Positions 32,422-38,279 of a stretch of 64,000 nt of DNA are shown piece by piece (the first letter of the stretch is position 1; the number at the start of each line of letters is the position of its first letter). Below the pieces are notes generated by a model. The model was not told the origin of the DNA. It was given only the letters and a program-made list of their open reading frames with translations, and ran no database searches. The stretch spans positions 1,426,001 through 1,490,000 of the forward strand of contig CP084613.1 of assembly GCA_025917655.1 (NCBI GenBank), written 5' to 3'. Source of the stretch: Chlorella sorokiniana. Lineage: Eukaryota; Chlorophyta; Trebouxiophyceae; Chlorellales; Chlorellaceae. The position numbers were made by a program, and so were the translations under genes.

Positions 32422-34861
32422 GTGGGGGGTGTTCAGGAGCAAAGCAGGGCGGCTGTGCATGGCGCAAGTCGCCGTAATGCGGCTAGCAAGGTGGGAGGCG
32501 TGATTGCAGCACATTCTGCCTAGGGCAGGGCTGCCTGCGTGCTCACGAACTCCTTTTCTTCGCTCAGGCCGCCAAGGAGGTGGCCGAGGGCAAGCTGTCG
32601 GACAACTTCCCGCTTGTGGTGTGGCAGACGGGGTCTGGCACCCAGTCCAACATGAACGCCAACGAGGTCATCGCCAACAGGTGTGGGTGGGTTCGGGAGG
32701 GGGATGGGGGCGGGGCGCGCGCCTGGCCTGTGAGGGCCCGGGCCTGAGCATGTGGACACTGGGACGTTGCTGCTTGTCTGGCTGCTGATGTGCCATGTGT
32801 GCCTGTGCCGCAGGGCCATCCAGCTGCTGGGCGGCAAGCTGGGCGACAAGGGCGTGGTGCACCCCAACGACCACGTGAACAAGGGGCAGTCCTCCAACGA
32901 CACCTTCCCCACCGTCATGTACATCGCGGGGTCACGGGTGGGCGGCAGCCGGCGCCAGCTGGCATGCTCCACCTGCCGGCGCGCCCCACCTGGTACTCCA
33001 TGCTGGCAGTGTTACGGCTCCGCACCGACGCGCTCAGCTCCTGCCCGAAAATTGCGCACCGACACTGTGCCGCCGTGCCGCCTGCCGTCCCGCCGTCGCC
33101 TGCAGAGATCCACGAGCGCCTGCTGCCCGGCCTGAAGCACCTGCACAGCGCCCTGGATGCCAAGGCCAAGCAGTTTGCGGAGATCATCAAGATTGGGCGG
33201 ACCCACACCCAGGATGCGACTCCCCTGACCCTGGGGCAGGAGTTCAGCGGCTACGCCACGCAGGTGGGCAGGGGGCCGGCACGGCGGCGCATGCCCGGGC
33301 CAGCATCGGTCGGGTGCAGCCAGAGAGCATGCCGTGCTGCCTGGCTTTGCTGCGGTTTTGCTGTCCGCCTGGACATGCCGTGCTGTTGGGTGTTGAGGCG
33401 CTGCCCGGCGCTGCGCAGGTGGAGTATGGCATCGCTCGCGTGGAGGCGGCGCTGCCGCGGCTAAGCATGCTGGCGCAGGGCGGCACAGGTGGGGGCAGCC
33501 TAAGCGAGCACACCCCGGCCTTGGAGAGTGCTGCAGCCTGTTCCATGCAGCTTGTGTTCTGCCAGGCCGAGGGAGCATCGACGCTGGTCATGACGGCCGC
33601 CCCGCCTGATGCCCACTGCCACCTGCCCCCGCTCCTGCCGTGCAGCTGTGGGCACCGGCCTCAACGCCAAGGTCGGGTTTGCCGAGAAGGTGGCCGCCAC
33701 GGTGGCCGCCGACACGGGGCTGCCCTTTGTCACCGCGCCCAACAAGTTTGAGGCGCTGGCGGCGCACGACGCGGTGGTGGAGATGAGCGGGCGCTCAACA
33801 CGGTGGGGCGTGGCTTGCGCTGGCTGGGCGGGGGCACCGCGACTGCCACCGCCTGACGCTCCATGCTGCCTGCATGTGTGCCTTCGCCCCGCCGCCCAAC
33901 CCTGGCGCCTGCCCGCTCCCTGGCTGCCCGCAGGTGGCGGCCAGCCTGATGAAGGTGGCCAACGACATCCGCTTCCTGGGGTCGGGGCCGCGGTGCGGGC
34001 TGGGCGAGCTGGCGCTGCCCGAGAACGAGCCCGGCAGCAGCATCATGCCCGGCAAGGTCAACCCCACGCAGTGCGAGGCCCTGACCATGGTCTGCGCCCA
34101 GGTGCGGCGCGCAAGGGGCACCTGCATGCTGGGTTGGGCGGGCGCGTGTGGTTAGGCGCACACCCACCCCGCGCCGCTGCGATCGGTGCTGCGTCTCCAG
34201 CATCCGTCCTGCCAGGCCGCACGCACAGCCCCCCCCCCACCCCGACCTCCCCCAGGTCATGGGCAACCACGTGGCCATCACCATCGGCGGCTCCAACGGC
34301 CACTTTGAGCTCAACGTGTTCAAGCCCATGCTCATCCGCAACCTGCTGCACTCCACGCGCCTGCTGGGCGACGCCGCCGTCTCCTTCACAGGTGAGCCCA
34401 TGCGCTGATGCGATGGGCAGGCGCGGCACCCCGCTGCGCGCCTGCTGGCCGTGGCTGCATGGGCTGGGAACCCTGCTTGTGACCCCCCCCCTTCCCCGCT
34501 CAACCCCCTGCGCAGACAACTGCGTGGCGGGCATCCAGGCCAACGAGGCCCGCATCTCGCAGCTGCTGCACGAGTCGCTCATGCTGGTCACCGCGCTGAA
34601 CAACAGGATCGGGTACGACAAGGCGGCCGCCATCGCCAAGAAGGCACACAAGGAGGTGAGGCGCGCTTTGGAGGGGGCCAACAGGCCGCTGCCTCATGCG
34701 CTCCAGCAGCCGCGTCTCGAGCGTATGCGCCGCCTCTAACAGCAGCATGCTCCCGGCGCTGCAGGGCACCACCCTCAAGCAGGCGGCGCTGGCCCTGGGC
34801 CACTGCACAGAGGCGGAGTTTAATGAGTGGGTGCGCCCGAGGACATGATTGCGCCCAAGTA
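31842..34861 (+). CDS. FUM1: Fumarate hydratase, class II, mitochondrial
   Basis: Interconverts fumarate and malate in the TCA cycle. Exon 1 (31842-31908, [20 protein letters not shown]) is an amphipathic presequence. It splices in phase through a GC-AG intron (31909-31991) to [20 protein letters not shown]. Family landmarks follow: [72 protein letters not shown] and the catalytic loop [20 protein letters not shown]. The C-terminus is [14 protein letters not shown] then PEDMIAPK. The tetramer active-site histidine and serine are present. The frame slips at the G run 33789-33791 (before ALNTVAASLM) and at 34836-34838; read literally the protein would end at 34848, a few residues early. About eleven exons. 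A (GT)13 tract sits near the start of the intron at 32391. Confidence 0.95.
32395..32421 (+). repeat. (GT)n microsatellite in fumarase intron
   Basis: About 13 GT units immediately downstream of a 5' splice site (GCAG then GTGCGTGTG). Confidence 0.9.
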
Positions 34862-35749
34862 GGGCGGCCCCACACGGGCCCACAGGCTTGGCGAGCACCT
34901 GCGCCGCTGGGCGGCATGAGTGCTTCGACCCAGGGCCGGCGTGATGCGAGCATCCTGCCGCAGTGCTGCCTGTGCATTGTTGGCTGCCAACCGCTGCCAT
35001 GCCCACCCTTGAAAATGCATCTGCTTGCGTTGCATCCATGTCCTACATGCAAGTGACGCGTTGAGGATGTTACAAGCAATGCAGTGAATGGTTGCTGCAC
35101 AACGATACCAGTGTAAGCAGCGGCAGAGGGTGGAAAGGAAGGCTCCGAGAGGTGTTGTTGCGCCTTGCTAGCGGCGGCTGCTCGCGTTTGATGACCACAG
35201 CAAGGCGGAAGAAAAGGCGCTGGGCATGAGTCAACCACTGCTGTGACGTTGTGATGGGCGATGTGATGGTTGCGGGCCATCTGTGACCTCGGCCCAATGC
35301 AAGGCAGGTGCCATGCATGCAAGCAAGCTAAAAACCACAGACGGCCTGCCTTGCGGTGGGCATTTTGTTACATGGAATAGCAGGTAGCATACGCTGATGA
35401 CGGCTCGATCGCAAGGGGCACGTTTGGATGGCGTCCTGGGGTGCTGCCGTTGTTGCCGGCGCTGCCATGCCAGGAGGCGCCCACTGCCGCCAGTCCCGCG
35501 CACATGCTCTTTGTTTCGTCATGCAGTGTAAGAAATCCTGCACAGGATACAGAGTTCTTGGTTAGCCTGCTGCCAGTGACTGCATGCAGGCTCTTTGTCC
35601 CACAGGCAGCAAGTCACCCAACAACACCACGAGGGCTTCTGTGTCAGGTCTGCGCTGGCTGCTTGTCAGCCAGTCACTAGTGCAGGCCCGATTTTGCGCA
35701 GGCTCAGGCCCCCTTCCCATGAATGTCAAGCAGGTAAACCGCAAACAGG
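34862..35749. other. Convergent intergenic region, fumarase to FAM32A
   Basis: Nearly 900 bases of lower-GC DNA between two convergent genes. It holds the fumarase 3' UTR and probably the FAM32A 3' UTR. Short open frames on both strands show no family signal. No RNA gene recognised. Confidence 0.5.
35112..35116 (+). terminator. TGTAA polyadenylation signal after fumarase
   Basis: TGTAA about 250 bases past the fumarase stop, in AT-richer non-coding DNA. Confidence 0.4.
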
Positions 35750-36365
35750 CTAAGCAACATCGGTGCTGCTGGGTGTGGCCAGCAGCGTGCATCTCACCTG
35801 AACAAGTCGAAATGCTGCAAACCAAGGAAGCAAGACAAGGCGGAAGTACTTGAGAAAAGCTGAACTGTTGGAGCTACCTGGCAGCTTGTGACGAGCCATG
35901 TCAAGCACCCCTTGCTGGGCCCACACAGATCTACACTCCGCCACACCTTCGCCCCCACTGACCCCAAGCAGGCCCCACCTCGGTCTCGGTGGCAAGGCGC
36001 TCGTTCAGCTCCTTGATGCGCTCGCGGTGGCTCTTGGACGCCAGCTTGCGGGCGCGCTGCTCCTCGTACTTCATAAAATGCTCGTCTGCCTTCTTCTCCG
36101 CCGCTGTACGCCGATCCTTAACGGCCGCTGGGTCCAACGGGACACCCTCAGTTGTCTTCCCAGCCTGCGCCGCCAGGTCGCCGCCGTCGCCGTCCTGCTG
36201 CTGCGCCTGCTCCTCGCCTTCACCGCCTTCTGCTACCACTAGCGCCTGCTCCTGCGCTGCCGCTGGGGAGGACTTGGCCTTCTTCTTCTTCTTCTTCACG
36301 CCGCCCTTGAGCTGCGACAGGTCCACGCCGCCCTTCAGCTTCAGCTTGCCACCCACAAACGACAT
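35750..36365 (-). CDS. FAM32A-like nuclear protein
   Basis: Small basic protein of the FAM32A family; in animals it associates with the catalytic spliceosome. It begins MSFVGGKLKLKGGVDLSQLK, where KLKLKG is the family start. A Lys run, an acidic/Gln spacer and the conserved block (DRRTAAEKKADEHFMKYEEQ, then LASKSHRERIKELNERLATE) follow. That last helix corresponds to HKQRVEDFNRHL of human FAM32A. The first coding exon ends at a good splice site after ETE (about 35979). The last exon is less certain; a segment encoding GVLDMARHKLPG near 35915-35880 lies after a plausible 3' splice site and could run on to the stop at 35750. The start lies 19 bases after the OST4 stop on the same strand, so the two may share one mRNA. 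Confidence 0.78.
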
Positions 36366-36384
36366 GCTGCTGCTGCTGGGAGGC

Positions 36385-36696
36385 CTAGTCTTGGCGCCTG
36401 GGTTCTGCCGTCACGTAGTTGTAGGCAATAAGCAGCGCCGCAATGAGCAGGCCTAGCACGTTCTGCACACGGCGGAGGCGCATAGGGAGGCGGCTTGATC
36501 TGAGGGCGAGCGGCAGAGCTGTCGGCAGGCTGACGGTCGGCGATCGAGCTGTTTTCCACATATTTCGCTGCATGTTGGGGCCGGTAATTGTTCGCCGGCG
36601 GCCAGCAACGTGGAAATTTCCTGCACAACCCACAATCCTCAGAGCTTCTGCAGCTTGGCGCACCGCAAAGCGACCCAAATCGCGGTCGTCAATCAT
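36385..36696 (-). CDS. OST4: OST4, small subunit of oligosaccharyltransferase
   Basis: Single-span ER membrane microprotein that stabilises Stt3 in the oligosaccharyltransferase complex for N-glycosylation. Exon 1 (36696-36664) encodes MIDDRDLGRFA. The intron starts GTGCGC and ends GTGTGCAG, and exon 2 (36462-36385) gives NVLGLLIAALLIAYNYVTAE followed by PRRQD and stop. The joined product is 36 residues, the usual OST4 size. It follows the plant pattern of MIDDQDLG, a hydrophobic helix, then IAYHYV and a short polar tail. The phase-0 junction and both splice sites agree. Exon 2 alone is too short to attract gene finders. The gene is immediately upstream of FAM32A on the same strand and divergent from RPS13. 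Confidence 0.87.
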   Translation of the reverse strand: MIDDRDLGRFAVRQAAEALRIVGCAGNFHVAGRRRTITGPNMQRNMWKTARSPTVSLPTALPLALRSSRLPMRLRRVQNVLGLLIAALLIAYNYVTAEPRRQD

Positions 36697-37100
36697 ATGT
36701 CGGTCGATCGAGGCTGTGCGCTCGCGCACACGCCGGCGCCGCTGTCAAGGTTTCTAGAGACACAGGGTCCGTGGGCCTGGTGGATCTATAAACAGTACTC
36801 GCGACACAGGAGTGTAGGAAACACTGTCGTTGGCCCTGCAAGCGGCGCAGAGTTAAACCTGCATGGACCATGGCGTGCCCTTCATGCTGCGCCCCTGGCG
36901 CCCAAATGCCCGTCCCGCCCCTGCTCCCGCCTCTTTCAGTCGAGTAGGTGAGTCAGCGTGTGCCGACAGCATCTCAGCCGTGTCCTTCATCGCTCGCATC
37001 AAGCAGCCCACCAGCGAGCCTCTTCCTCGCTTCTCATGCTTGCCTGCGAACCACCGCTGCAGGTTGAAACTCGGCGCGGGGGCAGCAACAGTCGACCACC
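36697..37100. other. Divergent promoter region, OST4/RPS13
   Basis: 404 bases between two opposed start codons. It includes a TATA box for RPS13 and probably an RPS13 5' UTR intron (donor GTGAGTC near 36948, acceptor CTGCAG near 37063). Confidence 0.45.
36787..36792 (+). promoter_or_regulatory. TATA box of RPS13
   Basis: TATAAA in CTATAAACAG, about 310 bases before the RPS13 ATG. The distance fits a promoter plus a leader interrupted by the probable 5' UTR intron. Confidence 0.45.

Positions 37101-38279
<1,179 letters not shown>

Follow-up and report, generated by a model that had tools for sequence, protein, structure and literature searches.

OST4 and FAM32A lie in tandem on the minus strand of a 64,000-nucleotide stretch of Chlorella sorokiniana DNA (contig CP084613.1, positions 1,426,001 to 1,490,000; hereafter the window), and they very probably represent the green-algal OST4_FAM32A bicistron, in which a single spliced message would carry both open reading frames (ORFs) and FAM32A would be reached by leaky scanning. 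The pair and its mechanism are already known and published for another green alga. An earlier note on this DNA was not aware of the two genes having been described as a unit, but Duenas et al. 2025 (PMC11892635) both name OST4_FAM32A and dissect it experimentally.

In that work, 43 bicistronic loci were curated from Iso-Seq data in Auxenochlorella protothecoides and 36 in Chlamydomonas reinhardtii, and Chlorella vulgaris and C. sorokiniana were surveyed for collinearity (PMC11892635). OST4_FAM32A (UTEX250_A05.11125/11130) is reported as an A. protothecoides bicistron conserved with C. reinhardtii, and it was one of two loci tested in vivo, picked partly for that conservation (PMC11892635). The A. 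protothecoides locus resembles the one described here in its two genes and their order, in a short ORF 1 and in the features expected of leaky scanning (PMC11892635). The Chlamydomonas OST4 bicistron, Cre16.g801965/Cre16.g686900 in a 2024 preprint (PMC11291117), has the same ORF 1 gene, and the pair is reportedly conserved with A. protothecoides (PMC11291117, PMC11892635), although C. reinhardtii belongs to another class and is separated by about 700 My (PMC11892635).

The coordinates of the C. sorokiniana locus are collected in the table below. ORF 1 is OST4. Its product of 36 aa, the length given in the earlier note, is encoded by two exons (MIDDRDLGRFA followed by NVLGLLIAALLIAYNYVTAEPRRQD); the 201-nt intron was picked from 11 possible choices by its fit to OST4, and with it the Pfam Ost4 score is 40.2 bits, versus 23.9 bits for the unspliced 103-aa frame (cut-off 25). 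A search of the alga's own genome with the Pfam Ost4 profile gave no matches, and such a search is uninformative for a short, split OST4, because it detected 0 of 14 controls although OST4 is present. Protein searches of the 38.8-Mb assembly placed the OST4 frame and FAM32A at a single site each, in both cases this locus.

ORF 2 is FAM32A, with a 140-residue product encoded by three exons. The Pfam FAM32A score passes its cut-off of 22 only narrowly, at 22.5 bits; 106 database proteins match at E <= 0.01, many of them carrying the FAM32A Pfam family or label, and in an alignment with nine algal relatives the match extends to the C-terminus. It is only 54-59% identical to FAM32A of Micractinium tetrahymenae, M. 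conductrix, Chlorella variabilis and C. vulgaris. In PsaD of this alga, 5 of 115 positions depart from chain 6zzx_D of Chlorella ohadii. FAM32A of the chlorellacean relatives closes with (E)H(H/F)D(L/I)FRISYTA, and the window encodes this ending in two additional small exons. With three exons, the coding sequence runs 231 bases beyond 35750, where the earlier note had closed its span; the third exon (RISYTA, 35537-35519) was left out. Bacterial and archaeal genome contigs were also searched with FAM32A for stray algal DNA, and none of the 587 pattern stretches proved to be a relative.

Features of the OST4-FAM32A locus, in window coordinates
Feature	Position	Strand	Description
Gap between OST4 and divergent RPS13-type gene	36697..37100	.	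404 bp; probable promoter region
OST4 exon 1	36664..36696	-	MIDDRDLGRFA; Pfam Ost4 on spliced protein; intron position same in P0108
OST4 intron	36463..36663	-	201 nt, GT-AG, phase 0; no in-frame stop, three ATGs in frame
OST4 exon 2	36385..36462	-	ends with stop TAG 36387-36385
Inter-ORF spacer	36366..36384	-	19 nt, without ATG and without TGTAA
FAM32A exon 1	35979..36365	-	ATG 36365, A at -3, T at +4; Pfam FAM32A 22.5 bits
FAM32A exon 2	35798..35814	-	HFDLF and part of next codon; GT-AG borders; alignment to relatives
FAM32A exon 3	35519..35537	-	end of R codon, ISYTA, stop TGA; GT-AG borders; chlorellacean relatives end FRISYTA
TGTAA, candidate poly(A) signal	35368..35372	-	146 nt past FAM32A stop

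The two genes are colinear on one strand, as in the published bicistron, and are separated by very little DNA. The OST4 stop codon is followed after 19 nt by the FAM32A ATG (36365-36363), so that the positions and the spacing proposed in the earlier note hold on the minus strand. Judged against the medians for A. protothecoides, which serves as the reference species, this spacer is far shorter than the 2,518 nt between colinear monocistronic genes and also shorter than the 40 nt between the ORFs of bicistrons (PMC11892635).

A shared transcript would begin in the 404-bp gap beside RPS13, be spliced at one intron in OST4 and two in FAM32A, and end beyond 35519. The RPS13-type gene lies on the plus strand; its ATG at 37101 was placed by reading, and Pfam Ribosomal_S13_N scores 44.6 bits on the next exon. 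The gap is common to this divergent gene and OST4 and is a possible bidirectional promoter. On the far side, the C-terminal part of a fumarase (34500-34862, plus strand; Pfam FumaraseC_C 43.3 bits, end placed by reading) is convergent to FAM32A.

The motif TGTAA is the candidate algal poly(A) signal; from 34801 to 36700 it occurs on the minus strand only at 35372 and 35074, both past the FAM32A stop. None is found on that strand from the OST4 start at 36696 to the FAM32A stop at 35519, which lends weak support to a shared message, since only 0.41 would be expected there by chance. This bears on the alternative of two transcription units, with a FAM32A promoter within OST4 and an OST4 transcript ending within FAM32A. 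Nothing specific to the locus speaks for such an arrangement, although Auxenochlorella isoforms with internal promoters are mentioned in the literature (PMC12636532). Besides the missing TGTAA, it is opposed by the A. protothecoides set, which is described as made up of loci whose ORFs are found exclusively on one transcript and in which OST4_FAM32A is treated as a member (PMC11892635). We regard two units as extremely unlikely. The earlier note's interpretation is partly borne out: one mRNA for both genes is supported by the anatomy of the locus, by the adjacency in relatives described below and by direct published work on this pair in A. protothecoides (PMC11892635).

The arrangement of the start codons fits leaky scanning. 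The OST4 ATG stands in the context GACATATGATTG, with C at -3 and A at +4, and the FAM32A ATG has the purine A at -3 without the consensus G at +4. The ORF 1 context is the weaker of the two by the -3 purine alone, as neither start has G at +4 and the comparison involves no species-specific score. In the spliced message the AUGs fall at +1 (OST4), at +131 (FAM32A) and then within FAM32A; the 127 nt between the two starts contain none, where 1.4 would be expected. Leaky scanning needs this stretch to be free of AUG, but its absence is not significant on its own, because 1156 of 5000 Markov resamples of the same 127 nt are AUG-free too. Upstream of the OST4 ATG, the closest ATG is 168 nt away. 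The details differ between the two algae, since OST4 of A. protothecoides contains a single out-of-frame AUG (PMC11892635), whereas OST4 and the spacer here have no internal AUG.

By extension from the Auxenochlorella work, we infer that in C. sorokiniana ribosomes would either begin translation at OST4, whose ATG is weakly placed, or continue scanning to the following AUG, that of FAM32A. FAM32A could instead be reached on the same bicistronic message mainly by reinitiation after OST4 termination, and a short OST4 of 36 codons with a 19-nt gap would permit some of this. A gap of that size leaves ribosomes little distance over which to reload initiation factors. Output from the same Auxenochlorella pair also runs against reinitiation, being inverse to ORF 1 start strength: the ORF 2 reporter fell 1.7-fold when the ORF 1 Kozak sequence was strengthened, rose over twofold when it was weakened and rose over fivefold when the ORF 1 start was removed (PMC11892635). 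The authors read these results as leaky scanning and not mainly as reinitiation or an IRES, although they do not fully exclude reinitiation (PMC11892635). We therefore consider reinitiation very unlikely as the main route; of the two mechanisms offered in the earlier note, leaky scanning is the one favoured by the Auxenochlorella work (PMC11892635).

Retention of the OST4 intron might be thought to tune the balance of OST4 and FAM32A output. The intron is stop-free, its length is divisible by three and it carries three ATGs in frame with OST4. If left unspliced, the message would encode a longer OST4 and leave fewer scanning ribosomes for FAM32A. A search with the unspliced OST4 frame, which could find only relatives with open introns, picked out, among 89 candidates, one relative (P0108) besides the window's own protein. 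The intron of P0108 occupies the same site and is likewise open in frame, but the intron sequences are little alike. Resampling left the OST4 intron stop-free in 827 of 5000 cases, before the 1-in-3 chance for length is taken into account. We hold such tuning to be very improbable.

Adjacency of OST4 and FAM32A, which the earlier note proposed to compare across other Chlorellaceae genomes, is seen in public protein models of two other algae. P0009 from Micractinium conductrix and P0091 from Elliptochloris bilobata are FAM32A-related models that begin with OST4, with Pfam Ost4 scores of 21.5 bits (below the cut-off of 25) and 25.8 bits, respectively. They were found among 108 fetched proteins by screening for OST4 with a loose pattern. 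Because that screen overlooks P0107 and P0108, there may be further fused models; a search for others with residues 1-40 of P0009 returned only P0009 itself. In each of the two models part of one frame is missing where OST4 meets FAM32A, as expected of a gene caller that runs two ORFs together. The adjacency is thus very probably real in at least two more trebouxiophytes, and the models are probably misannotations of the same bicistron.

Taken at face value, the annotation of P0009 and P0091 as single proteins would favour a fused product in C. sorokiniana also, with the OST4 stop spliced out and OST4 joined to FAM32A as in the M. conductrix and E. bilobata models. Against this, P0009 lacks the C-terminal end of OST4 and P0091 lacks the N-terminal KLKLKG of FAM32A, both ORFs in the window are complete, each with its own start and stop, and misannotation is said to be frequent at bicistronic loci (PMC12636532). 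We give a fused protein next to no credence, and two separate ORFs on one message remain the preferred reading.

The other test locus of Duenas et al. 2025, TOM22_SDHAF3, also appears from its predicted frames to be a colinear pair of this kind in the same 38.8-Mb genome, although the genes are different and the spacer is longer. A TOM22-like piece, which at 15.0 bits falls short of its cut-off of 28.7 and whose last exon and stop were placed by eye, is followed by 122 nt without ATG; next comes an ATG that precedes a frame with a Complex1_LYR_2 match (54.1 bits; L003:1500-2300). This ATG (L003 2023) is out of frame with the SDHAF3-like LYR domain that it precedes, which may reflect a small intron, another start or an assembly indel. 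A search of the genome for CYTH (TTM3), as part of a third known bicistron, CDC26_TTM3, gave 0 of 1, with 11 of 14 controls detected; introns may hide a match. Together with OST4_FAM32A, the TOM22_SDHAF3 pair suggests that at least two such bicistronic loci persist in this genome.

The locus raises no question that the published work has not already raised. It would add one more species to a bicistron whose conservation in Chlamydomonas and Auxenochlorella has been reported. A gene model is also corrected, as the public models in two relatives fuse both ORFs.
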